Below the pieces are notes generated by a model, which did not search any database, was not told the DNA's origin, and was given only the letters and a program-made list of their open reading frames with translations. A DNA stretch of 64,000 nucleotides, from positions 1 to 64,000 of the forward strand of contig JAFUGM010000056.1 of NCBI GenBank assembly GCA_017469355.1, in the 5' to 3' direction. Made by a program: the position numbers and the translations under genes. The DNA comes from Solobacterium sp. Its GTDB lineage: Bacteria; Bacillota_I; Bacilli_A; Erysipelotrichales; Erysipelotrichaceae. This document shows, piece by piece, positions 43,077 to 57,103 of this stretch; the stretch's first letter is position 1; every line of letters begins with the position of its first letter.

Positions 43077-45209
43077 TCACCCTGTCTTCAGCGGTTTCGA
43101 TAGAATCAGGCAGGAACACTGCGGTACGACCACCTCTGCCCGAAGCCCTTCGATGGGCAATCCGTTTTCATCCGCAATGATCTGATATTCCTCCTCAAAA
43201 TGGAACCGATGTTCATTTAATGACGGATTGAAGATTACCCTGATACCTGAGGAATCATTCGCACTGTCAGTGCAGTCCATGTCATACAGCACCACATATC
43301 CATCCGCCAGTGAGAAATGAACCTGAGTATCAATCTGCTGGGCAGTATTGAAGCGGAACGCAGGATATTGTCTCCGGATGGAAATCATCCTTCTGGTATA
43401 CTCCACAACATCATAGTTCAGTATCATTCGATCCCAGTTCATCTGGTTAATCACATCTCCGGAGTTATAGGAGTTTGTATTGTCCTGTTTTGTGCCGCAG
43501 AACTCCATGCCCTGGTGAAGAAACGGAATTCCCTGGGCTGTAAGTGTTGCGGCGATCATCAGCTTCTGACGCTTTTTGCGGATGTCTCTTGGCTCTTCCG
43601 CGCAGCACATATGCATCTTATCCCAAGCGGTCGCATTATCATGAGTCTCAAGCGCATTGACACTTTGAACTGGTGTATCAAACCGGCGGAAATAGGGATC
43701 CTGTTTGGAGTTTCCGCTGAGCGCGCTGCACATATCAAACGCCATACCGAGATTCCCAGTCAGATAGCCTTTGTCATATTTACTGTCATCTCCCGTTCTT
43801 CCCTTGGCGATATCACGGAAGGTGTCGTTGAAATGACCGATCCCCGGCATCCGATGTTGATTATAGATACGGGCCTTACGGTCCTCAGGAAGTGCCGTCG
43901 GCATATCCCATCCTTCGCCATAAATCAGCACATCCGGCTTGATTGTTCTTGCGAGGCGATAAATCTCGTTCATCGTATCCACATCGAGAATTCCCATTAA
44001 GTCAAACCGGAATCCATCAATGTTATACAGTTTCATATGCGTACGAATGACATCAAGATACAGTTTCCGCATCATCGGCCGTGTGCTGTCCAGATCATTT
44101 CCACAGAAGCTTCCATTGGACATCCATCCGTTTTCGTTATAGCGGAAGTAGTAGTACGGAACGATACGGTCAAAGGGAGACTTCCCGACATCATACATGT
44201 GGTTGAATACTACATCAAGAGTTACCCGAAGTCCCTTTTTGTGCAGCGCAGAAACCATCTTTCGAAATTCAATACAGCGGCTGTATGGATCCGATGGTTT
44301 GGTGCTGTAGCTTCCTTCCAGCGTAAAAAACTGTTCTGGATCATAACCCCAGTTATAGCCCCGGTCCGGGTGGTCTTCATCAATGGTAAGAAAGTCCATG
44401 ACCGGCTGAAACTGCACATGGGTAATTCCAAGATCTGCCAGATAATCCAGGCCGGTCGGATTCAGCTTCCAGCTGGTGCCTGGCTCAGAAAGTGAAAGGA
44501 ACTTTCCGTTTGTGCTGGTGCCGGTCTCCCGAGAACTTGTCATATCCCGTACACTGCATTCATAGATCACCGCATCGGCGGCACTGTTCATGACACCGGT
44601 AACGCCACGGTCTTCTATCCGCTCAATCTCTGAGGTATCAATGACTGCTGAGTGACGGCAGTTAGCATCGGAAGAAAGCCCATAAGGGTCAATACTTTCA
44701 ATCATGAGTCCATCCCGTTCAATCAGGTAGACATAGAGCACATGTTTCAGATCCCCTTCTACCTTTACCCGGAATACTCCTTTTTCTCCACGCGTCATCG
44801 GGTAGAGTGTCACCTGGCCACGATGATCGATCAGGCGAAGATATACATGTACTGCGGTTGGAGCCCAGAGAGCGAAGTTCGTATAGTCTTTGTGATACAC
44901 TGCGCCAAGGTCATCCCCATGGTAAGTGAACTGCCGGTCAAATTCCGCCGTACGGACAATATGACGGATCTGAAGCGGAACTTCCTTTCCGTGGGTTTCA
45001 TGAATGGTATAATTCTGGCCAAAATGAACGACCGCAGGAATCGTAAGATCATAGCGGATTTCCCGATCATGTTCTTCCACCCCACGGATAATACAGTCAC
45101 TGCAGGTTCCATCTTCCCCCGTGAGATAAAACCCTCCGGCAACACCGTTATAGTAATTTCTGGAGAGGCATACCTGAACCCGTCCAAAATCATCAAGATA
45201 AGCTTTCAT
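43077..45209 (-). CDS. pulA: Type I pullulanase (GH13_14)
   Basis: 710 aa from ATG 45209. It debranches alpha-1,6 links in glycogen or limit dextrins. N-terminal CBM48-like region ('TNFALWAPTAVHVYLRLIDH'), pullulanase signature 'YNWGYDP', GH13 regions 'VTLDVVFNHMYD', 'GFRFDLMGILD' (nucleophile), 'LIYGEGWDMP' (acid) and 'ETHDN'. No signal peptide, so it is cytosolic and acts with glgP in glycogen breakdown. A terminator follows glgP upstream, so pulA may depend on read-through or its own start. Confidence 0.96.
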   Translation of the reverse strand: MKAYLDDFGRVQVCLSRNYYNGVAGGFYLTGEDGTCSDCIIRGVEEHDREIRYDLTIPAVVHFGQNYTIHETHGKEVPLQIRHIVRTAEFDRQFTYHGDDLGAVYHKDYTNFALWAPTAVHVYLRLIDHRGQVTLYPMTRGEKGVFRVKVEGDLKHVLYVYLIERDGLMIESIDPYGLSSDANCRHSAVIDTSEIERIEDRGVTGVMNSAADAVIYECSVRDMTSSRETGTSTNGKFLSLSEPGTSWKLNPTGLDYLADLGITHVQFQPVMDFLTIDEDHPDRGYNWGYDPEQFFTLEGSYSTKPSDPYSRCIEFRKMVSALHKKGLRVTLDVVFNHMYDVGKSPFDRIVPYYYFRYNENGWMSNGSFCGNDLDSTRPMMRKLYLDVIRTHMKLYNIDGFRFDLMGILDVDTMNEIYRLARTIKPDVLIYGEGWDMPTALPEDRKARIYNQHRMPGIGHFNDTFRDIAKGRTGDDSKYDKGYLTGNLGMAFDMCSALSGNSKQDPYFRRFDTPVQSVNALETHDNATAWDKMHMCCAEEPRDIRKKRQKLMIAATLTAQGIPFLHQGMEFCGTKQDNTNSYNSGDVINQMNWDRMILNYDVVEYTRRMISIRRQYPAFRFNTAQQIDTQVHFSLADGYVVLYDMDCTDSANDSSGIRVIFNPSLNEHRFHFEEEYQIIADENGLPIEGLRAEVVVPQCSCLILSKPLKTG

Positions 45210-45227
45210 GAAAAACCCCCGAAAACA

Positions 45228-45258
45228 CAAAAGAAAAAGGCATGTGAATGCCCTTATC
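45228..45258 (-). terminator. glgP terminator
   Basis: Reading minus: GGCAT, loop TCAC, ATGCC, then TTTTTCTTTTG. It lies between glgP and pulA. Confidence 0.6.
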
Positions 45259-45284
45259 TTAATGCCAAAGCAGATGTGAATCAA

Positions 45285-47687
45285 TCAAAGATTGATCGGT
45301 TTGATATCCCAGATTTCTTCCCCATACTGACGAATTGTGCGGTCACTGGAGAAGTAGGAAGACTTCGCGATATTGATGAGACAGCTTCTTGCCCAGGCAG
45401 AACGGTCTTCATACCGGCGGCTGATCTCTTCCTGTGCCCGGACATAGGAGTCAAAGTCCGCAAGGACAAGGAACTCGTCGTTCTTCATCATGAGTTCTTC
45501 GTAGATCGGACGGAAATCATCACTGTTTCCGTTCCAGTATCCATTGATGAAGGTGTTCAGTACATTACGAATACGCTCATCGTTATTTACATAGTCAATC
45601 GCACGGTACATCTGACGGAAATGACCGATCTCTTCAACCGTAAGACCGAAGATGACATCATTTTCACGCCCGACCAGACGATCGATTTCTACCGTAGCAC
45701 CATCCAGTGTTCCCAGCGTAATTGCACCATTCATCATGAACTTCATATTTCCGGTTCCGCTGGCTTCCTTACCGGCTGTGGAAATCTGTTCCGAAACATC
45801 CGATCCATTCATGAGTGTTTCCGACATAGTCACACTGTAGTTGGGAAGGAATACCACTTTCAGCATGCCCTTCACATCCGGATCATCGTTTACCTTCTTG
45901 GCTACACAGTTAATCAGCTTGATAACCTTCTTGGCAAACTGGTATGCCGGAGCAGCCTTTGCGGCGAAGATATAGGTATGCGGATAAATACGGAAATTCG
46001 GGTCCGCCTTGATTCTCTGATACAGGTAAATGACATGCATGATATTCAGCAGCTGCCGCTTATATGCATGAAGACGCTTCGCCTGGGAATCAAAGATGGA
46101 GTTAGGATCCACCTCCACACCCGTGGAACGGCGAATATAGTTCGCAAGCACTTCCTTACGTTCCTGCTTTACCTTGAGGAACTTCTTCTGAACTTTAGGG
46201 TCATCCACATAGTTCATGAGTTTTTCGATCTTATCGAAATCCTTCTCATATCCCTTTCCGATGGTTTCATCGAGAAGTTCTCTGAGTTCCGGATTGGAGT
46301 AAAGCATCCAACGCCGTGGTGTAATACCATTGGTCTTGTTCTGGAAGCGTTCCGGCCACATGCGGTAGTACTCCTTGAAGAGATCGGTTTTCAAAAGACC
46401 GCTGTGAATCTCTGCGACACCATTGACACTGTGCGACATCGTTACGGCTAAACGGGCCATATGAATCATACCGTTATCGATAATACGGGTGTCATACCAC
46501 AGGTTATTTTCATTCGGGAAACGCTCATAGAGGTAGTGCCCATACCGGCCATTGATTTCATCAATGATCATGTAAATCCGAGGCAACAGCTTCTGCACAT
46601 ATTCTACCGGCCACTTTTCCAGCGCCTCACTCATAACGGTATGGTTGGTATAGGACATGACAGACTTTGTGATCTCATGGGCCTGAACCCACTGATATCC
46701 ATAATCATCCATGAGTACACGCATCAGCTCCGGAATTGCCAGAACCGGATGGGTGTCATTCAGCTGAATGGATACGACATCACCGAGATTATCGAGGTTC
46801 GCATATTCCTTGAGATGTGCCTTGATGATAGAGTCAATTCCGGCACTGACAAAGAAGTACTGCTGCTTCAGACGAAGGTATTTTCCCTCTTCCGTTGTAT
46901 CGTCCGGGTAGACGTTCAGACAGATTTCATTGACTTCCTGCAGGTATTTCCGGTAGTCCATCCAAGCCGGAGAACGGTCCGACGCCTCTGCCGACCACAG
47001 ACGCAATGTATTGGTCATCTTTGTGCCGGCACCGATCATCGGCATATCATAGGGAACCGCGAGAATGTGTTCGGCATTGACATGGTTGAAATGAAGATTT
47101 CCCTTGTCGTCCCCGCTCACTTCGACATTTCCCCAGAACTTTACATCAACGGAGTGCTTCGGTTTCCGTACTTCCCACGGATTTCCGATCCGCATCCACA
47201 TATCAGGAACTTCAATCTGATTTCCCTGGTCATCAATCAGCTGACGGAACAGACCGCACTGATAACGGATACAGTTACCATTGACCGCAAGGTTTTCCGT
47301 TGCGGCAGAATCCATGAAACACGCCGCGAGACGTCCAAGTCCGCCATTGCCAAGACCCGCATCCCGTTCCATCGCTGCGATGGTGTCGTAATTGATATCA
47401 AGATCCTTTAATCCTTCGACGACGATATCGTAGATTCCCAGATTCTTGAGGTTGCTGGTAAGAGAACGTCCCAGCAGAAACTCCATGGAAAAGTAGTAAA
47501 CCTGCTTTGCCTTCTGTTTCTTGATCGCAACCTTGGTGTCCTTCCAGTTTACAGAAGCGTAGTTGCGTACCATTTCACCTAAGGTGAGGTAACGTTCGGT
47601 AGGATGTGTTTCTTCTACCGTCGTCCCATACAGCTCAATCAGACGCTGAGAGAACTCCTTTTTAAACTCCGTTTTATTCTTGAACAT
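45285..47687 (-). CDS. glgP: Glycogen/starch phosphorylase (GT35)
   Basis: 800 aa. It releases Glc-1-P from alpha-glucan ends, using PLP. Marks: 'FSMEFLLGRSLTSNLKNLGI', 'GNGGLGRLAACFMDSAATEN', 'QLNDTHPVLAIPELMRVLMD', 'MARLAVTMSHSVNGVAEIHS', and the PLP-phosphate site 'EASGTGNMKFMMNGAITLGT'. Own promoter with extended -10 TATACT (47730-47735) directly after the glgB terminator. Confidence 0.97.
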   Translation of the reverse strand: MFKNKTEFKKEFSQRLIELYGTTVEETHPTERYLTLGEMVRNYASVNWKDTKVAIKKQKAKQVYYFSMEFLLGRSLTSNLKNLGIYDIVVEGLKDLDINYDTIAAMERDAGLGNGGLGRLAACFMDSAATENLAVNGNCIRYQCGLFRQLIDDQGNQIEVPDMWMRIGNPWEVRKPKHSVDVKFWGNVEVSGDDKGNLHFNHVNAEHILAVPYDMPMIGAGTKMTNTLRLWSAEASDRSPAWMDYRKYLQEVNEICLNVYPDDTTEEGKYLRLKQQYFFVSAGIDSIIKAHLKEYANLDNLGDVVSIQLNDTHPVLAIPELMRVLMDDYGYQWVQAHEITKSVMSYTNHTVMSEALEKWPVEYVQKLLPRIYMIIDEINGRYGHYLYERFPNENNLWYDTRIIDNGMIHMARLAVTMSHSVNGVAEIHSGLLKTDLFKEYYRMWPERFQNKTNGITPRRWMLYSNPELRELLDETIGKGYEKDFDKIEKLMNYVDDPKVQKKFLKVKQERKEVLANYIRRSTGVEVDPNSIFDSQAKRLHAYKRQLLNIMHVIYLYQRIKADPNFRIYPHTYIFAAKAAPAYQFAKKVIKLINCVAKKVNDDPDVKGMLKVVFLPNYSVTMSETLMNGSDVSEQISTAGKEASGTGNMKFMMNGAITLGTLDGATVEIDRLVGRENDVIFGLTVEEIGHFRQMYRAIDYVNNDERIRNVLNTFINGYWNGNSDDFRPIYEELMMKNDEFLVLADFDSYVRAQEEISRRYEDRSAWARSCLINIAKSSYFSSDRTIRQYGEEIWDIKPINL

Positions 47688-47729
47688 AGTCCTTTATCCT
47701 TTGTAAGTCCGAAAAACATGGACTGTGCC

Positions 47730-47738
47730 AGTATACCA
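47730..47738 (-). promoter_or_regulatory. glgP promoter, extended -10
   Basis: Reading minus: TGGTATACT. The -35 is weak and lies inside the glgB terminator stem. Confidence 0.5.
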
Positions 47739-47776
47739 TAAAACCGGGAATCCCTCGATTTCTGTGATTCCCGGTT
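47737..47776 (-). terminator. glgB terminator
   Basis: AACCGGGAATC (47742-47752) pairs with GATTCCCGGTT (47766-47776), 11 bp; reading minus TTATGG follows. Confidence 0.7.
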
Positions 47777-47784
47777 CTACATTG

Positions 47785-49629
47785 CTATTTATCTTTCTTT
47801 TTCGGGCAGGTAAACCATATGGCGGCGAATGGGGCCAGCCGGATTGTAATTTTCTGTGGAAATCTTGCCGGCTCCTTCACTTTCTTTGTGCGAAGCGGCT
47901 CGAAGTTGCACATATTACAGCCATCATAGATGTCCTTTTCCGTATTAATGATCTCCGTCCAGGTTCCCTTCTGTGGAACCGGGACATCATAGATTTCATA
48001 AGAAGCAGGCGTCAGATTCATGATACAGAGCAGATACTCCTTTTCATCTTCCCGATAGAAGCTGTATACCGACTGCTTTGTATTGTCTGCGTCAATCCAT
48101 TGGAACCCGCCAAAGTCATAGTCCTTCTGATACAGTGCCGGATGGCTGGTATAGGTGCGGTTCAGATCAGTGAAGAAGCGCAGGAAACTGTCATGTCTGG
48201 GATAGGATAACAAAAACCAGTCAAGCTCCTTCTTCTCATCAAACTCCCGGAAGGACGCAATTTCATTTCCCATGAAGTTCAACTTCTTCCCAGGATGGGC
48301 AAACATATAGGCATACATATTTTTTACCTGGGCAAACTTCTGTTCGTAGGTTCCCCACATCCGGTCAATAACCGTCTTCTTTCCATGAACGTTTTCATCA
48401 TGGCTGAGCGGGAGAATAAACCGTTCACTGTAGAAATAGGCCATGGAGAAGGTCAGTTTATGGTGATCATAGACCCGATAAATCGGATCGGTGGAATAGT
48501 ACTTCAGCGTATCGTTCATCCATCCAAGATCCCACTTATAGTCAAAGCCCAGCCCGCCATCGAGTGTAGAAGCAGTCACATGAGCGAAGTCGGAGGAATC
48601 TTCTGCAATGAGCATCACACTTGGGAATTCCTTTTTCAGGTAGTAGTTCATCCGTTTCATGAAGTTCAGAGCACCTTCATTGGTTCCCCGATTGGAGTTT
48701 CCACCCCAGTAGATCATGTTGGATACCGCATCCATGCGGATACCGTCAATATGATAGGTAGCACACCAGAATACCGCACTGCTGATCAGAAAAGAGCGAA
48801 CCTCCTCACTCCATAAGTCAAAGTTCAATGTTCCCCATTGGCTTTCCGCATCTTCCGCCTTCCGATATTCGTAAAGCGCCTGCCCATCAAACCGCCGCAG
48901 ACCAAAACTGTCTTTGACGAAGTGCACCGGAACCATGTCCATGATGACGCCGATCCCATTCTCATGACATGCATTCACAAAGGACGCAAATTCGGTGGGA
49001 TTGCCATAGCGGCTTGTACAGCTGAAATAACCGGAGGCCTGGTAGCCCCAGGACCCATCAAAGGGATATTCATTCAGCGGCATCAGTTCGATATGGGTAT
49101 ACCCATGTTCCAGAACATAGGGAATCAGATGTTCTTCCAGCATCTGGTAGGTATAGGGATACTCCCCATTCTGTTTCCATCCGCCCGCATAGACTTCATA
49201 GATGGAAACCGGACGGTCAAAACAGGCAGTCCGCTCCTTCATCCAGGTCTCATCACTCCAGTGAATATCATGGAGATCATAGACCTTGGATGCGGTCTCA
49301 GGACGGGTCTCGCTGTAAAAGGCATAGGGATCGCTCTTATCCAGGAAATTGCCATCCTTGTCTTCAATCCGATATTTATAGGAATCCCATTCCTTTACTT
49401 CCGGAAGAAAGATACTCCAGATTCCACTGAATCCGGTTCGGGACATACGTGCCGCATTGCCATCCCAGTTATTAAAACTTCCAATCACACTGACATTGCG
49501 CGCGTGGGGCGCATATACCGTAAACCGGACACCCTCACTGCCTTCATAAGAAAAATGGGCACCGAACATCTTCCATGCGTCAATACAATGACCTTGATGG
49601 AAATCCTCAATGATTCTGGCCTGATCCAT
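47785..49629 (-). CDS. glgB: 1,4-alpha-glucan branching enzyme (GH13)
   Basis: 614 aa. It creates alpha-1,6 branches. CBM48 start 'GVRFTVYAPHARNVSVIGSF', GH13 regions 'VIMDMVPVHFVKD', 'DGIRMDAVSNMIYW' (nucleophile Asp), 'MLIAEDSSDF' (acid Glu) and 'LPLSHDENVH'. Length fits GlgB without the extra N1 domain. A perfect hairpin lies 28 bases before the gene. Confidence 0.97.
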   Translation of the reverse strand: MDQARIIEDFHQGHCIDAWKMFGAHFSYEGSEGVRFTVYAPHARNVSVIGSFNNWDGNAARMSRTGFSGIWSIFLPEVKEWDSYKYRIEDKDGNFLDKSDPYAFYSETRPETASKVYDLHDIHWSDETWMKERTACFDRPVSIYEVYAGGWKQNGEYPYTYQMLEEHLIPYVLEHGYTHIELMPLNEYPFDGSWGYQASGYFSCTSRYGNPTEFASFVNACHENGIGVIMDMVPVHFVKDSFGLRRFDGQALYEYRKAEDAESQWGTLNFDLWSEEVRSFLISSAVFWCATYHIDGIRMDAVSNMIYWGGNSNRGTNEGALNFMKRMNYYLKKEFPSVMLIAEDSSDFAHVTASTLDGGLGFDYKWDLGWMNDTLKYYSTDPIYRVYDHHKLTFSMAYFYSERFILPLSHDENVHGKKTVIDRMWGTYEQKFAQVKNMYAYMFAHPGKKLNFMGNEIASFREFDEKKELDWFLLSYPRHDSFLRFFTDLNRTYTSHPALYQKDYDFGGFQWIDADNTKQSVYSFYREDEKEYLLCIMNLTPASYEIYDVPVPQKGTWTEIINTEKDIYDGCNMCNFEPLRTKKVKEPARFPQKITIRLAPFAAIWFTCPKKKDK

Positions 49630-49656
49630 ACTGCATCCTCTATTCTAAATTGATGT

Positions 49657-49681
49657 GATACCGGCGGATGATGCCGGTATC
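49657..49681. repeat. Perfect hairpin in the glgB leader
   Basis: GATACCGGC (49657-49665), 7-nt loop, GCCGGTATC (49673-49681). No T-run on either strand, so an RNA control or stability element is likelier than a terminator. A possible minus promoter (TTGCAA, 17 bp, GACAAT) lies just upstream at about 49700-49730. Confidence 0.5.
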
Positions 49682-49757
49682 AATACGTGACTTTATTGTC
49701 CATGGTTCTTAGTGAAATTGCAATTACGATTCCACGTAAGACACATAGCTGAAATAA

Positions 49758-49795
49758 CAAAAATGGAAGGACGGGTGCGTTCACACCCGTCCATC
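49758..49795 (-). terminator. pgcA terminator
   Basis: GGACGGGTG (49769-49777) and CACCCGTCC (49784-49792), 9-bp stem; reading minus TTCCATTTTTG follows. Confidence 0.75.
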
Positions 49796-49805
49796 ATTCC
49801 ATTAC

Positions 49806-51488
49806 TCAGGAGAGAATCGGCTTGCAGGCATCTGCGAGCTCGTCTTTTTCCTTCTGCGCCTCCGCAAGATCCTTGCCAAGGGTTGTGAAGTATGTCTTGA
49901 TCTTCGGTTCGGTTCCGGAAGGCCGTACCACAACGGAAGCACCATCTTCCAGTGTGTAGATCAGTACATTTGACTTCGGGAGACCGGTTTCTTCCGGCTT
50001 ATCATAGTCCGTTACCTTAACAACCTTACGTCCAGCAAACTCCGTCGGCGCATTGTTCCGCAGGCCATCCATGATTCCAGCCATCTTATCCATTCCCGAA
50101 AGTCCCGGGAATTCAAAGCTGTCAACCTTGTTCAGGTAGCGGCCATACTGCGCATAGATCTCTTCCAGACGCTGTTTGATGGAAGAACCAATGGAGCGGT
50201 AGTACGCTGCCATTTCGCATATCAACATGGAGCCGATGATCGCATCCTTATCTCTGACATACGGTCCAGCCAGATATCCATAGCTCTCTTCAAATCCGAA
50301 GATGAAGCGATCCACTTCCCCGTCTGCTTCCAGATGGGCAATCTGGTCACCAATCCACTTGAATCCAGTCAGAACATGGCGAAGCTCTACGCCATAGTGT
50401 TCCGCAACCTTATCCGCAAGCGGTGTCGAAACAATGGACATCACGGCGACCGGTTTTTCCGGCATGGTTCCCCGTTCGATCCGTCCCTGGCAGATGTAGT
50501 CCAGAAGCAGAACGCCCATTTCATTTCCGCTGACCAGCTCATACGTGCCATCCGGACACTTCATAGCGATACCGACACGGTCCGCATCCGGGTCTGTTGC
50601 CAACATCAGATCTGCACCGGTCTGCTCTGCTAACTGAAGTCCCTTTTCTAAAGCCTCGAAGATCTCCGGGTTGGGATACGGGCAGGTTGTGAAGTAGCCA
50701 TTCGGGTATTCCTGCTCAGGAACGATCGTAATATCGGTAATACCCATGTCCTTGAGCACATGCGTTACCGGAACAAGACCCGTTCCATTCAGCGGGGAGT
50801 AAACCAGCTTCAGTCCGGCTGTTTTGCATAAGCCCGGGCGTACCTGACGCGCTTCGATTGCTTCATAAAGCGCATCCTTACAGTCATCACCAACAAACTT
50901 GATCAGTCCGTTTTCCACACCTTCCGCAAAGCTGATATACTTTGCGCCATTCAGTACATCGGTCTTCTGAATGCTGTCATAAACGACTGCCGCCGCATCA
51001 TCTGTCATCTGGCAGCCATCCGGTCCATACGCCTTAAAGCCATTGTATTTGGCAGGATTATGGGACGCGGTAATCATGATTCCGGCATTGCAGTTGTAAT
51101 ATCTTGTCGCAAAGCTCAGTGCCGGCACCGGCATCAGTTCATCATAAATACGAACATGAATTCCGTTTGCCGCAAGAACGCCAGCCGCATCACGTGCGAA
51201 GTTCCATCCCTTAAGACGGGAGTCATAGGAGATCGCAACCGTCTGTGTTCCACCCTGTGTCTTAACCCAGTCCGCAACACCCTGTGTTGCCTGGCGCACA
51301 ACCCAGATATTCATCCGGTTTGTTCCAGCACCCAGTGTCCCGCGCAGTCCGGCTGTACCAAACTTCAGCGCAACCGCAAAACGTTCCTTAATCGCATCTT
51401 CATCATCCTTGATGGAGAGCAGCTCCGTCTGCAGATCGACATCGAGAAGATCCGCATCCAGCCAGCGTTTATATTCATCCAGATACAT
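49806..51488 (-). CDS. pgcA: Phosphoglucomutase (alpha)
   Basis: 560 aa. It interconverts Glc-1-P and Glc-6-P. 'GIMITASHNPAKYNGFKAYG' holds the phosphoserine, 'ATDPDADRVGIA' the Mg site, 'FGFEESYGYLAGPYVRDKDA' the sugar specificity loop and 'VVRPSGTEPKIKTYF' the phosphate loop. It joins the glycogen, cellobiose-phosphorylase and glycolytic pathways. Placed upstream of glgB with separate terminator. UDP-glucose supply for the envelope is an additional likely role. Confidence 0.96.
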   Translation of the reverse strand: MYLDEYKRWLDADLLDVDLQTELLSIKDDEDAIKERFAVALKFGTAGLRGTLGAGTNRMNIWVVRQATQGVADWVKTQGGTQTVAISYDSRLKGWNFARDAAGVLAANGIHVRIYDELMPVPALSFATRYYNCNAGIMITASHNPAKYNGFKAYGPDGCQMTDDAAAVVYDSIQKTDVLNGAKYISFAEGVENGLIKFVGDDCKDALYEAIEARQVRPGLCKTAGLKLVYSPLNGTGLVPVTHVLKDMGITDITIVPEQEYPNGYFTTCPYPNPEIFEALEKGLQLAEQTGADLMLATDPDADRVGIAMKCPDGTYELVSGNEMGVLLLDYICQGRIERGTMPEKPVAVMSIVSTPLADKVAEHYGVELRHVLTGFKWIGDQIAHLEADGEVDRFIFGFEESYGYLAGPYVRDKDAIIGSMLICEMAAYYRSIGSSIKQRLEEIYAQYGRYLNKVDSFEFPGLSGMDKMAGIMDGLRNNAPTEFAGRKVVKVTDYDKPEETGLPKSNVLIYTLEDGASVVVRPSGTEPKIKTYFTTLGKDLAEAQKEKDELADACKPILS

Positions 51489-51918: not shown

Positions 51919-52395
51919 CTATTTATGATATGGTTCATGGTTCAAAATACGGAAACTGCGATAGATCTGCTCGATGACCAGCACCCGACAAAGTCCATGA
52001 GGAAATGTATTATCTGAGAGTTTCCATCGGATATCGGCCCGCCGGATCAGGTCTTCACTGACCCCCAGGGATCCTCCGATCACAAAGTCAATCACCGGTT
52101 TCCCACTTATTCGGCATTGATCAATGCGCTTTGATAACGCAACACTGTCCATCGGCTTTCCCGCAAGGTCGAGAAGAATCATGTAATCATTGTCTTTGAC
52201 ATGGGATAATAACCGCTGTCCCTCGATCCGTTTTACCTGTTCATTCTCCGCAGCAGAATTAGACTCGGGTGCCTTTTCATCCACCACCTCAATCAGTTCG
52301 ATTCGATCATAAGGACGAATTCGCTTTTCAAACTCCGCAATGCCGTCCTTTAACCATTTATCACGAAGCTTTCCGCACGCAATGATCCGAATCAT
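51919..52395 (-). CDS. rlmH: 23S rRNA pseudouridine1915 N3-methyltransferase
   Basis: 158 aa, standard length. It methylates pseudouridine 1915 of 23S rRNA. 'MIRIIACGKLRDKWLKDGIA', 'MILLDLAGKPMDS', the SPOUT knot 'VIDFVIGGSLGVSEDLIRRA' and the end 'FRILNHEPYHK' are all conserved. Start overlaps the htrA-like stop as ATGA. Confidence 0.98.
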   Translation of the reverse strand: MIRIIACGKLRDKWLKDGIAEFEKRIRPYDRIELIEVVDEKAPESNSAAENEQVKRIEGQRLLSHVKDNDYMILLDLAGKPMDSVALSKRIDQCRISGKPVIDFVIGGSLGVSEDLIRRADIRWKLSDNTFPHGLCRVLVIEQIYRSFRILNHEPYHK

Positions 52396-53471
52396 TTCAA
52401 CTCCACACTCAGCGCATTGGAAGCACCGCCATGGATCACCGAAAGATTGATCACATCTCCGCTTTCATGACTGTAGAGTACCTTGCGCAGAGAATCCTCT
52501 GCACTGAGCAGAACTTCATCTGCCGAGACAAGAATATCATTTGCCTGTAAGCCGGCTTCCTGAGCGGGAGAGCCCTCTATGACTTCCATAATCACTAATC
52601 CGCTGTTCTGATCAAGCGGAAGGTTCATTGCGCTTTTCTGATACAGTTCAAGATCTTTGAGATCCCTGGTAATCACACCAAGGTATCCACGGTTGACTTC
52701 TCCGTTTCTTCGTAACTGTTCCGCCGCGATCAGCACTTCTGAAATCCCCGCAGCTCGATTCAGCTGGCGTTCGCCATCCTCCGTTTCCGCATACAGCAGT
52801 CCAATCATCTGCCCGCTGAGGTTAAGCAGGGGTCCGCCTTCCATTTCCGAACTGATTCTGAGATCCGTATGAATCTCTTCCCGGATCCACTCCTGTTCTT
52901 CCCCACTCACATACTTCTGCCCAGACATGGACACCACTCCAAACGAGGTTTCTCCGATCCCCGTATGAAGATTTCTTCCGCCAAGCGCAATCGCATATTC
53001 ACCCTGCGCAAGGGAAAGCGATGATCCCATATCGATCGCCTCTACATCAAATTCCGGATGCGTCAGAAACAGGGCAATTCCAAGTAGTTCATCGGTTCCC
53101 CGCAGTTCTGCTTCATAGGAAAGCCCATTGTCAAAACGAACAACGTAGAGTTCCCCTTCTCCCTGTGTCGCGGAAGAGGAGCTGAGAATCCATACATCTG
53201 TTCCCATGACGGAGTAGATCACGCCGCTGAAAATCCGCTCTTCCTGCTCATTGACCGTGGAAATCGTAACGGTTTTATGACGCTCTTCCGCTACGGTTTC
53301 GGTAATATCGGTGATATATCCTTCAATCGTATGTGTCGTAACGGTGACATCTTCTGGTCCTTCATTCCGCAGTTCTGCGGTTTCCGCAGGACGCTGGTCA
53401 TAAAGACGCAGTGTGAGCCATACGTTCCACAGTAAAAATCCTGCTGCAACTGCCGCCATCCACTTTTTCAT
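52392..53471 (-). CDS. HtrA-like pseudoprotease with PDZ domain
   Basis: 359 aa from ATG 53471, with GGAGGTG ten bases upstream; a GTG at 53483 lies inside that site. One N-terminal membrane segment ('WMAAVAAGFLLWNVWLTLRL'), a trypsin-like domain, and a C-terminal PDZ domain ('NRGYLGVITRDLKDLELYQK' to the end). It aligns along its length with HtrA, but the His region NNHVV is SSSSA (97-101), the TDIAVL Asp region is LGIALF (about 130-135), and GNSGGPL is EMEGGPL (209-215). All three triad residues are gone while the fold signature remains. It keeps the walJ-htrA-rlmH position. Probably a membrane-bound scaffold or sensor rather than a protease. Confidence 0.85.
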   Translation of the reverse strand: MKKWMAAVAAGFLLWNVWLTLRLYDQRPAETAELRNEGPEDVTVTTHTIEGYITDITETVAEERHKTVTISTVNEQEERIFSGVIYSVMGTDVWILSSSSATQGEGELYVVRFDNGLSYEAELRGTDELLGIALFLTHPEFDVEAIDMGSSLSLAQGEYAIALGGRNLHTGIGETSFGVVSMSGQKYVSGEEQEWIREEIHTDLRISSEMEGGPLLNLSGQMIGLLYAETEDGERQLNRAAGISEVLIAAEQLRRNGEVNRGYLGVITRDLKDLELYQKSAMNLPLDQNSGLVIMEVIEGSPAQEAGLQANDILVSADEVLLSAEDSLRKVLYSHESGDVINLSVIHGGASNALSVELK

Positions 53472-54219
53472 TCGGCCAGTCACCTCCTTTAATCAGTTCG
53501 TTCTGCGCTGCCGAACAGAGAATCAGTCCATTTCTGCGGTCCGGGTGATGTTCCAGCATATTACCGGAGACTTCCAGCGCACGCTCCCGTGTATTTGCCT
53601 GCTCACTGATGTGGGCAAGGATAATCATTTTCGTATTCGATGTCACGATCTTTTTGAGAATCGCCGCACAGTCTTCATTGCATAGATGACCATTATCCCC
53701 GGCAATCCGCATCTTCAGAAACATCGGACGCGATGTCTTCATCAACATCTCCACATCATGATTACTTTCTAGGACGATATAATCCGCTCCCTTCATCAGG
53801 GGAAGATACGCATCACGGATATATCCGGTATCCGTCACATAGACCAGGGTCTCCTGAAAGCTTTTGATGATATATCCCGTGGTATGTTCCGCATCATGGC
53901 TCAAGGCGATGGGAGTAATCGTCAGATGTTCTACGGAGAAAGACTCCCCAGGCACCACCGGGATGGTAGAAATCCCCTTGATCGATACCGGGCTATAGAT
54001 CGTCCGATCCGCAACGAGCGCGATTCGGGCGATATGATCCGTATGATCATGCGTGATCAATACCGCATCGATGTCTTCCATAGTGGTATTTGTCGCCGCA
54101 AGGGAATCAAGAATACACCGCTTCGTTCCGCCGCAGTCAATCAGGATGGAGGTATGTTCATCCTTGAGCAGGAAGCAGTTGCCTTTCGATCCGCTTTCAA
54201 ATATCGCAAAATGCATCAT
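53398..54219 (-). CDS. walJ: MBL-fold hydrolase, WalJ/YycJ family
   Basis: 273 aa. Metallo-beta-lactamase fold with 'HDHTDH' metal motif, 'LSHDAEHTTGY', 'YVTDTGY' and 'LESNHD' further ligands. Family members are linked to DNA-exonuclease or cell-wall/division coordination. Here it follows the M23 peptidase and overlaps the start of the htrA-like gene by 74 bp. In Bacillus and relatives it follows walRKHI, which are not present here. Confidence 0.93.
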   Translation of the reverse strand: MMHFAIFESGSKGNCFLLKDEHTSILIDCGGTKRCILDSLAATNTTMEDIDAVLITHDHTDHIARIALVADRTIYSPVSIKGISTIPVVPGESFSVEHLTITPIALSHDAEHTTGYIIKSFQETLVYVTDTGYIRDAYLPLMKGADYIVLESNHDVEMLMKTSRPMFLKMRIAGDNGHLCNEDCAAILKKIVTSNTKMIILAHISEQANTRERALEVSGNMLEHHPDRRNGLILCSAAQNELIKGGDWPNEKVDGGSCSRIFTVERMAHTASL

Positions 54220-54222
54220 ACG

Positions 54223-55737
54223 CTAGCAGGGCAGGAAGCCGTCACACGGGTCCCGTCGTTCTCCTTCATACATGATAAAGAAATGCGTGTGAGGTCCCGT
54301 CGCAAGACCCGTCATGCCGATCTGACCGATGATATCGCCCTTATCTACGACGGTTCCCTCCTCCAGCGGAGACGGCACATTCATATGACCATAGTAGGTT
54401 TCATAACCGTTGTTATGATCGATGATGATGTAGTTTCCGTTAATTCCGTTATAGGAATTCACTTCAATCACACCACGGTCTGCCGCGTAGATGTTTCCAT
54501 AACGGTCATAGGCGTTTTGAATATCGATGGCCCGATGTCCGTAATAACAACCCCAATGACAGGAGATATACGGGTTGTCGACCGGCCAGCGGAAGGACCC
54601 GGTACCAGTTCCCGGCAATACCATCGTACCGACCGCAATGATTTCATTGATCGGCTGTAAGGTGTCTACCGAGGAAGTCAGAGAACCGCTGACCAGAACA
54701 CCATTGATCCACCGTTCGGTATACAGGGAGTTCTTCGATCCATCGACTGCGACCTGAACCTGATGGATCTCCCCTTCCCGGATCGTATTATCGGTCTGGT
54801 AAATCGTATCTGCGATAATCGGTTCCTTTTTCATGGATTCCTTGGTTACCACAATATCGATCGGAGAAGTGAAGTAAGTAACACATAATTCCATTCCTTC
54901 ACTGAGAATCTGATCCGTTCCGGTAATCTGATCCCGGTTAATATTCATTACCTGGGTTGCGGAAAGGTCATGGTTCTTTGAACCTACACCAGCCACGGTG
55001 TCATAGGTCTGAACCGTATAGTATTCCCGCTCTATATTTTCACCATATTCCAGATAGTCGAGCACTTCTTCCGCAGTGGTTTTGATATTATCTGGCGACG
55101 TGTATGCCGGCTGCATCGTAATAGTCTGTAATACCGTTACACCGACCGAACGGGATCCATAGGTCTTAAGCGGCGGCGTGCTTTCTCCGCGGTTAAGCAG
55201 CGCGAGTTCTTCCGGTTCAATGAAGTAGGACATGTATTGATTCATCGCCTCATTGAACAGATCTTCATCCGAAATATAGATTTCAGCGTAGATGCCGTTT
55301 TCATCCGAAAACTCCACACCCGTACAGCGCAACGTAAACAGGCGATTCTCCTTCAGATAGGAAAAAATCGCCTCATCGATATTTTCATAGGTCATATAAC
55401 TCTGCTCGGAAATCAGATAGACATCTGTCCCAAGCGCAAGTTTTGAGCCGGGATACTCCGCCTCATAAAGTTCCTTGTAGGTGCTCTGAAGGAAACTGTC
55501 CAGTTCCCCTTTCGCACTCAGCACGCCGACCAGCTCTCCATCACTGTAAAGACGGAAGACTTCATGCGGTGTGCTGTCAATCCGCTCTGCCCGCTGTGAA
55601 AGAACGGAAGAGGAATTCTCCTCCGCAAGCGTATAGGCGTAGGGCTGTGCCACCAGTTTCAACGCACTCGGCAATCCAAAGACCACCGCGAAGGAACCTA
55701 ACAGACACCCAAACAAAACCAGCACACGTTTGATCAT
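54223..55737 (-). CDS. Secreted M23 peptidase with LysM- and G5-like domains
   Basis: 504 aa from ATG 55737 with GGAG seven bases upstream; earlier in-frame starts overlap dnaB. N-terminal membrane anchor or signal ('VLVLFGCLLGSFAVVFGLPS'), a long extracellular region, a LysM-like segment (about 235-285, 'YTVQTYDTVAGVGSKNHDLS'), a G5-like segment, and a C-terminal peptidase M23 domain with 'GHRAIDI' and 'GPHTHFFI' as zinc ligands. It should cleave peptidoglycan cross-bridges and is placed between dnaB and walJ, pointing to a role in cell-wall growth. Confidence 0.9.
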   Translation of the reverse strand: MIKRVLVLFGCLLGSFAVVFGLPSALKLVAQPYAYTLAEENSSSVLSQRAERIDSTPHEVFRLYSDGELVGVLSAKGELDSFLQSTYKELYEAEYPGSKLALGTDVYLISEQSYMTYENIDEAIFSYLKENRLFTLRCTGVEFSDENGIYAEIYISDEDLFNEAMNQYMSYFIEPEELALLNRGESTPPLKTYGSRSVGVTVLQTITMQPAYTSPDNIKTTAEEVLDYLEYGENIEREYYTVQTYDTVAGVGSKNHDLSATQVMNINRDQITGTDQILSEGMELCVTYFTSPIDIVVTKESMKKEPIIADTIYQTDNTIREGEIHQVQVAVDGSKNSLYTERWINGVLVSGSLTSSVDTLQPINEIIAVGTMVLPGTGTGSFRWPVDNPYISCHWGCYYGHRAIDIQNAYDRYGNIYAADRGVIEVNSYNGINGNYIIIDHNNGYETYYGHMNVPSPLEEGTVVDKGDIIGQIGMTGLATGPHTHFFIMYEGERRDPCDGFLPC

Positions 55738-55741
55738 GAGC

Positions 55742-57103
55742 TTACTCCGCATGACGTTCAATATTCATCAAGGCATTCGTGTTTGCCTCAAACGCAAGAT
55801 TAATCCGCCGGGTCGCACCGTTACGGTGTTTGGCGATATTGATTTCCAGTTCCTCACTACCCGTACGTTCCGCCTCTTCCTTGGCTTCCGCATCATAATA
55901 GGACTTCCGATATAACAACATGACGATATCCGCGTCCTGCTCAATGGCACCGGACTCACGCAGATCCGAAAGCTGCGGGTGCTTGTCTTCCCGACTCTCC
56001 ACATTACGGGAAAGCTGCGACAATGCGATGACTGGCACTTCCAGTTCTCTTGCCAGGGCCTTGAGGCTTCGGGAAATCTCTGATACTTCCTGTTGGCGGT
56101 TGACTTCGCCTCGGCCAGAAGACGTTCCGGAAATCAATTGAATATAGTCAATAAGAATCATGGAAAGTCCGTGTTCATTCTTCAAACGCCGACACTTGGA
56201 GAAAATCTCCGGCACTTTGACGGAAGACTTATCATCAATATAAATCAAAGAGGAACTCAGACTGTCACTGGCCTCATTGATGCGGTTCCAATGTTCATTG
56301 GTAATATGGCGGCCAGTACGTAGCAGGTCACTTTCCACCCGGCTTTTCGCACTTAATAACCGCATTGCGAGAGACTCCGCGCTCATTTCCAGAGAGAAAA
56401 TCGCAACTGCGCTGTTCTTCTGATAGCCCGCCACATTCATCGCAAGATTCAACGCAACTGCAGTTTTTCCCATCGACGGACGTGCCGCAAGAATAATCAG
56501 ATCCCCTTTCTGGAATCCATGCGTGATCCGGTCCAGATCACGGAAGCCGGTTTTCACACCGATAATGTCACTGTTGGTTGCGGACTGACGGTGAATCTGT
56601 TCCACCACTTCATGCATTAATGCCGGGGTCGTCTGAAACTCACCGGTCCGCCGGCTGCGGGACACATTCAGCACCGCTTTTTCACAGGCATCCAGATAAT
56701 CATTAATATCGGTCGTCCCTTCCAGACCACTCGACGTAATCTCCCGTCCAGCTTCAATCATCGCCCGGGTCAATGCCTTATCTTTCAAAATCGACACATA
56801 GGTTTTGGTATTAGCACTGGTAACCGCCGATTCCATCAGGCTGGTAAGTGCCGCAGTTCCGCCGACCTTATCCAGGTTTCCCTGATCGAGAAGCCGGGTC
56901 GAAACAGAAACCGGATCGACGGTGATGCTTTCCCGGTACAGCGATTCGATCGCACGGAAAATCAGGCGATTTCGCTCATCGTAGAAATCGTCTTCCACTA
57001 ATCCCTCTTCAATCGCAAGTCGACCGGAAGAGGTATAAACCATCATCGTCCCAAGAAGCGCAGCTTCCGCTTCCGGTGCCGAAGGCAATGCTGAAATCGG
57101 CAT
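55742..57103 (-). CDS. dnaB: Replicative DNA helicase
   Basis: 453 aa. It unwinds DNA at the replication fork as a hexamer. N-terminal collar domain 'PSAPEAEAALLGTMM', RecA-like ATPase with Walker A 'AARPSMGKTAVALNLAM', 'VAIFSLEMSAESLAMRLL', Walker B 'LSMILIDYIQLI', 'VIALSQLSRNVESR' and 'REDKHPQLSDLRESGAIEQD'. No intein. Start is one base after the rplI stop (TAATATG). Confidence 0.98.
   Translation of the reverse strand: MPISALPSAPEAEAALLGTMMVYTSSGRLAIEEGLVEDDFYDERNRLIFRAIESLYRESITVDPVSVSTRLLDQGNLDKVGGTAALTSLMESAVTSANTKTYVSILKDKALTRAMIEAGREITSSGLEGTTDINDYLDACEKAVLNVSRSRRTGEFQTTPALMHEVVEQIHRQSATNSDIIGVKTGFRDLDRITHGFQKGDLIILAARPSMGKTAVALNLAMNVAGYQKNSAVAIFSLEMSAESLAMRLLSAKSRVESDLLRTGRHITNEHWNRINEASDSLSSSLIYIDDKSSVKVPEIFSKCRRLKNEHGLSMILIDYIQLISGTSSGRGEVNRQQEVSEISRSLKALARELEVPVIALSQLSRNVESREDKHPQLSDLRESGAIEQDADIVMLLYRKSYYDAEAKEEAERTGSEELEINIAKHRNGATRRINLAFEANTNALMNIERHAE

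Follow-up and report, generated by a model that had tools for sequence, protein, structure and literature searches.

A probable non-proteolytic HtrA homolog between walJ and rlmH in Solobacterium sp. and related bacteria

Gene, domains and fold at the walJ-rlmH locus

The window analyzed here is a 64,000-nucleotide stretch of DNA from Solobacterium sp. (assembly GCA_017469355.1, contig JAFUGM010000056.1, positions 1 to 64,000). On its minus strand, at 52392..53471, a coding sequence (CDS) for a putative HtrA/HtrC-like pseudoprotease of 359 amino acids was identified by translation, family matches, a structural model and a fold match. The frame is open from the ATG at 53471 to the stop codon at 52392-52394. 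The CDS overlaps by 74 nt the upstream gene walJ (53398..54219, minus strand; metallo-beta-lactamase (MBL) fold, Lactamase_B_2 match), and a Shine-Dalgarno-like AGGAGG was found within the walJ 3' end, 11 nt upstream of the CDS (53483..53488, minus strand). Its stop codon overlaps the start of the downstream gene rlmH in the sequence ATGA (51919..52395, minus strand; NF000985, 192.8 bits). Upstream of walJ lie gdpP, rplI, dnaB and a gene for a G5 and M23 peptidoglycan endopeptidase (54223..55761, minus strand), which was recognized by its domain matches and is present at most loci examined. The first-pass annotation, made from the sequence alone, had placed the CDS in a wal cluster. This holds for walJ, but walRK does not adjoin the locus, where the neighbors are the M23 gene, walJ and rlmH, and no WalK equivalog scored above its cut-off in the genome.

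The domains were all located on the minus strand. An N-terminal membrane anchor (residues 2-25, 53397..53468) forms a single helix in the AlphaFold2 model, and W15 and L19 in it are invariant in the genus alignment. A conserved juxtamembrane segment, T48-E58 (53298..53330; genus consensus TIxGYTTDITE), marks the start of the protease domain. The trypsin-like domain without catalytic residues spans residues 82-225 (52797..53228; PF13365, Pfam Trypsin_2, 44 bits against a cut-off of 27.6) and the PDZ domain residues 262-358 (52398..52688; PF13180, Pfam PDZ_2, 54 bits against a cut-off of 27). The stretch RGYLGV, R261-V266 (52674..52691), is what we take, from general knowledge of PDZ domains, to be the carboxylate-binding loop; R261 and L264 are conserved at 98% and 94% in the genus compared to 70% and 66% in catalytically intact orthologs.

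The AlphaFold2 model, obtained with the window and related-locus sequences, had a mean predicted local distance difference test score (pLDDT) of 90 and a predicted template modeling score (pTM) of 0.80. The top Foldseek matches in the PDB were DegQ, DegP and MucD, with E of approximately 1e-25, and the DegS fold was also found. A trypsin-like domain followed by PDZ, an N-terminal anchor, walJ upstream and rlmH downstream place the protein in the HtrA/HtrC fold family. The curated HtrA/DegP equivalog cut-offs were missed (TIGR02037, 112 bits versus 416; NF047968, 114 versus 470), but the canonical paralog of the same genome falls below them as well, so that this failure alone decides little. 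The earlier reading of an intact trypsin fold, membrane anchor and PDZ domain in an open frame coupled to walJ and rlmH is borne out by these results.

Replacement of the catalytic residues

The triad columns were located by alignment with the canonical HtrA of the genome and more than 150 homologs. Ser100 occupies the position of the catalytic His (codon 53172..53174, minus strand) and Gly131 that of the catalytic Asp (codon 53079..53081, minus strand), while E209-M210-E211 (52839..52847, minus strand) stands in place of the oxyanion-loop GNS with the nucleophile, G212-G213 being retained. Thus all three sites had been correctly called as replaced in the first-pass annotation, and the change of the oxyanion-loop Gly to Glu209 is to be added to them. 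The His-Asp-Ser triad and GNSGG oxyanion loop that together mark an active HtrA are absent.

The same was found throughout the genus. The catalytic His is missing from all 65 aligned genus proteins and from the partial L118 (66 copies in all), its column holding S, D, E, Q, R, K, N, T, A or, in two cases, a gap. The Ser column holds I, Y, A, E, T, V, S, N, L, M or D, with Ser itself in 4/65 proteins, and the Asp column holds chiefly G or D (D in 28/65). A complete triad occurs in none. Proteolysis has therefore very probably been lost in the genus-wide copies, as judged from their sequences.

A protein that is still an enzyme, using another nucleophile or a relocated triad, is very improbable. 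It would find some basis in the Ser or Thr at the nucleophile column of some genus members and in a few copies from other genera (L014, L022) that alter just Ser to Thr (HDT). However, the His and Ser positions each vary among approximately ten amino acids, the oxyanion-loop Gly209 is gone, and no alternative conserved His or Cys column was found in the genus clade, where the highest occupancy was 40% for His and 20% for Cys. A relocated triad was accordingly rejected, and with it the alternative His/Asp/Ser set that would have contradicted the first-pass annotation. The HDT pattern of L014 and L022 resembles that of MamO, and these copies possibly represent early stages of catalytic loss or have a Thr nucleophile.

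Selection, distribution and repeated loss

The survey covered 196 genomes of the family (Erysipelotrichaceae-like) and 70 genomes of the genus of the window, which comprises gut and rumen bacteria, with flanks included. An HtrA-like gene was found between walJ and rlmH in most family loci with enough flank, and a homologue without internal stops was present in 67/70 genus genomes. The CDS starts inside walJ in 64/64 genus loci and its stop overlaps or abuts rlmH in 63/64. The M23 neighbor is present in 60/64 genus loci and 48/53 intact loci.

The ratio of nonsynonymous to synonymous substitution rates (dN/dS, Nei-Gojobori) was 0.02-0.23 in 13 close pairs of dead copies, and 0.01-0.23 for the trypsin domain alone, compared to 0.02-0.12 in intact pairs. 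The three relatives closest to the window gene share 57-60% identity with it; against these, dN was approximately 0.34 and dS approximately 2, which is near saturation, giving a ratio of 0.16-0.19. The low dN/dS indicates that the dead trypsin domain is maintained. With an HtrA fold, a site inactive by sequence and retention under selection, the protein has what defines a bacterial HtrA pseudoprotease, and we read it as a functional one. Both the selection and the conserved place claimed for it earlier are upheld, the walJ-rlmH slot being kept across the family.

In the genus, change or scrambling affects H100, D131, G209, S211, Q201, F239, S174, N115, E221 and G307 (intact letters), columns with at least 85% conservation in the intact orthologs; several of them lie at active-site or adjoining loop positions. 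The genus has retained the fold glycines G83, G157, G212 and G220 together with D127, E158, S181, D203, R261, G291, D312 and Y333; D114, F141, R166 and Y277 are near-invariant in the genus and not in the intact orthologs. Mean conservation of the trypsin domain is 0.60 in the intact orthologs and 0.49 in the genus, whereas that of the PDZ domain is 0.48 and 0.50, respectively. This pattern fits a protein in which cutting has been lost and binding retained.

A decaying pseudogene, held open only through translational coupling to rlmH, is the least credible explanation. The lower conservation of the protease domain and the three reduced genomes without the gene, in two of which remnants are visible, would agree with it. 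Of these, G031 (L178 1256-1501) has an open reading frame (ORF) of 81 amino acids, the anchor only, left between walJ and rlmH, and G076 (L179) has a broken remnant carrying stops; in G238 rlmH was not found, hence the state of the locus was not judged. However, decay is largely refuted by dN/dS values far below 1 in all domains, and neither the stop-free homologs across the genus nor residues invariant over deep divergence, such as F141, Y277 and D127, are expected of it. A frameshift, pseudogene or assembly artifact was rejected on the same presence in the genus and low dN/dS.

Loss of the triad is not a lone oddity; it is the rule for the genus and also recurs elsewhere. Among wal-locus orthologs of other genera, 67 have an intact His-Asp-Ser triad and 11 do not. 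In a 156-row tree the genus rows form a single clade, with a support of 100 in the Shimodaira-Hasegawa-like approximate likelihood ratio test (SH-aLRT). The minimum number of changes in catalytic state was 8 in this tree and 9 in a bootstrapped 53-row tree built under a mixture model, where dead copies stand beside intact sisters on starred branches; such parsimony counts alone are compatible with reversals, and it is uncertain where the longest branches belong. A single loss behind all dead copies is unsupported, since dead copies are nested beside intact ones in g35, g18, g59, g46, g21 and g19. Intact triads in the outgroup HtrAs and in the sister-family HtrAs (10/10 loci sampled) set the polarity as loss; in the flanking DNA examined at these ten loci, no match to walJ or rlmH was found. 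These trees indicate that catalysis was lost several independent times at the walJ-rlmH slot outside the genus, a reading that leaves out the long-branched L090, L091 and L093 and the unplaced L022. L088, also long-branched, stays on its genus branch at 98/96.

Candidate function and comparison with known systems

Whether the genome has a canonical htrA at another place had been left to be determined in the first-pass annotation; one was found on a different contig (L001; G000:C57, 1084-2496), with NNHVV, SDIGV and GNSGGG at its catalytic sites. L001 carries a CxxC...CxxC zinc-ribbon-like segment N-terminal to its membrane helix, which was also seen in genus members L169, L170 and L172 and not in the others inspected. 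A second PF13365 protein was present in 24/24 dead-copy genomes surveyed versus 39/67 intact-copy genomes (none in 28/67), a difference with a Fisher p of 4.8e-5 but with only 5 trait changes on the tree and a sign test p of 1. Loss of catalysis seems confined to genomes in which a further HtrA can degrade the clients, a pattern that depends in part on phylogeny and serves as permissive evidence only.

Occurrence of dead copies only alongside another PF13365 protein would also suit a regulatory subunit, which would tune an envelope protease, either the canonical HtrA or a different one such as the neighboring M23 enzyme, by assembling or competing with it and without cutting. Conservation of the M23 neighbor points the same way, and MamE-dependent proteolysis requires MamO in a non-catalytic capacity (PMC4794232). 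However, the canonical gene lies on a different contig, and columns 52 and 159 often hold aromatic residues in wal-locus proteins (94% and 86% in the genus) but rarely in canonical paralogs (0% and 15%), which favors homotypic assembly, column 52 being poorly aligned in canonical HtrAs. These two columns presumably match the trimer contacts of HtrA2. On balance, a regulatory subunit is rather unlikely.

The neighborhood of walJ, gdpP and the M23 endopeptidase suggests a link to wall biology. Farther along the minus strand, at 43077-51488, lies a set of glycogen ORFs named by eye (pullulanase-like, glycogen phosphorylase, branching enzyme and phosphoglucomutase-like). The neighbor walJ is one of the wal accessory genes, and the single-pass anchor of the protein, its DegS-like layout with one PDZ domain and its conserved juxtamembrane TTDITE segment could serve an extracytoplasmic sensor or adaptor, whose PDZ domain binds misfolded or wall-related peptides and which signals via the membrane helix or a partner kinase. 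Such a role is unlikely, more so than that of a regulatory subunit. Sensing of the DegS type relies on proteolysis, which is lost here, the cytoplasmic part is only 1-2 residues before the helix, so that signaling requires a partner, and the genome lacks a WalK equivalog above the cut-off. Moreover, YycK of B. subtilis has apparently no role in WalKR regulation (PMC4801191).

We consider it probable that the protein is a wal-locus ortholog of the HtrC/YycK type turned into a non-proteolytic client-binding chaperone or adaptor of the envelope. Its single N-terminal helix would sit in the cytoplasmic membrane, the trypsin-fold and PDZ domains would face outward, and peptide bonds could no longer be cut. 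Exported envelope proteins would be held by their C-termini or by unfolded segments, in the PDZ groove and on the surfaces that once took substrate, so that a membrane-tethered chaperone or adaptor would act where secretion and wall remodeling occur, degradation being left to the separate canonical HtrA. We infer inactivity in vitro, client binding and client identity alike. The scaffold or sensor proposed in the first-pass annotation is plausible, and a client-binding chaperone or adaptor fits the data at least as well.

Several points weigh against this chaperone or adaptor. When phylogeny is taken into account, dead copies are not significantly associated with a second HtrA. The full gene is absent from the three small genomes and hence not essential everywhere; since these do without it, the gene is useful though dispensable. 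No conservation of a C-terminal PDZ-ligand motif was found in the M23 neighbor, and M23 as the PDZ ligand was rejected, its C-terminus being variable. The trypsin-fold protein could in principle also perform some unrecognized chemistry.

As a wider proposal, possible if doubtful, the ancestral selected job of HtrC at the walJ-HtrC-rlmH slot may have been non-proteolytic, either client binding or scaffolding in wall biogenesis, hence the recurrent pseudoproteases. If so, the catalytically intact orthologs too would work largely via the PDZ and trypsin-fold scaffold. The maintained genus-wide copy and the repeated losses provide a natural series in which HtrA cutting can be parted from binding. 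They also carry a warning for annotation, as domains and synteny suggest "serine protease HtrA", which is very probably wrong for the dead copies.

Among known systems, DegS, DegP and DegQ share the fold and domain order and include the best PDB matches, but they are active serine proteases with 20-26% identity to the protein described here. HtrA proteins in general are protease-chaperones (PMC12826053), and HtrA loci adjoining rlmH are common in Firmicutes (PMC4801191; PMC12826053). HtrC/YycK of B. subtilis has the same layout of anchor, trypsin and PDZ domains and its gene lies downstream of walJ (PMC4801191). HtrC is a protease, in contrast to the present protein, which lacks the triad and the oxyanion Gly and has no walRK beside its gene. 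According to a reference in a review, HtrC is said to take part in YpeB cleavage. The engineered B. subtilis HtrA S260A is likewise a membrane HtrA without proteolysis that keeps a chaperone-like benefit, lowering secretion stress and raising the yield of active amylase (PMC10715036). It is a laboratory point mutant, whereas the loss described here is natural, fixed and far more thorough.

No report of a pseudoprotease in the wal/rlmH slot was found in the open-access papers searched. Bacterial HtrA-family pseudoproteases with a documented role are few, and MamO of magnetotactic bacteria was the sole one found. It too is derived from HtrA, has an active relative in the genome and arose repeatedly and independently, and its non-catalytic jobs include promoting a partner protease (PMC4794232). 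The protein described here does not belong to the MamO family proper, since it has neither the TauE-like C-terminal domain nor the di-His metal site, its 359 amino acids ending in PDZ and no His column being conserved. Unlike MamO, it has the HtrC layout with a PDZ domain, and all three catalytic sites are lost. HtrA pseudoproteases are thus already known in kind, and the one in the wal/rlmH slot would be a variant of them.
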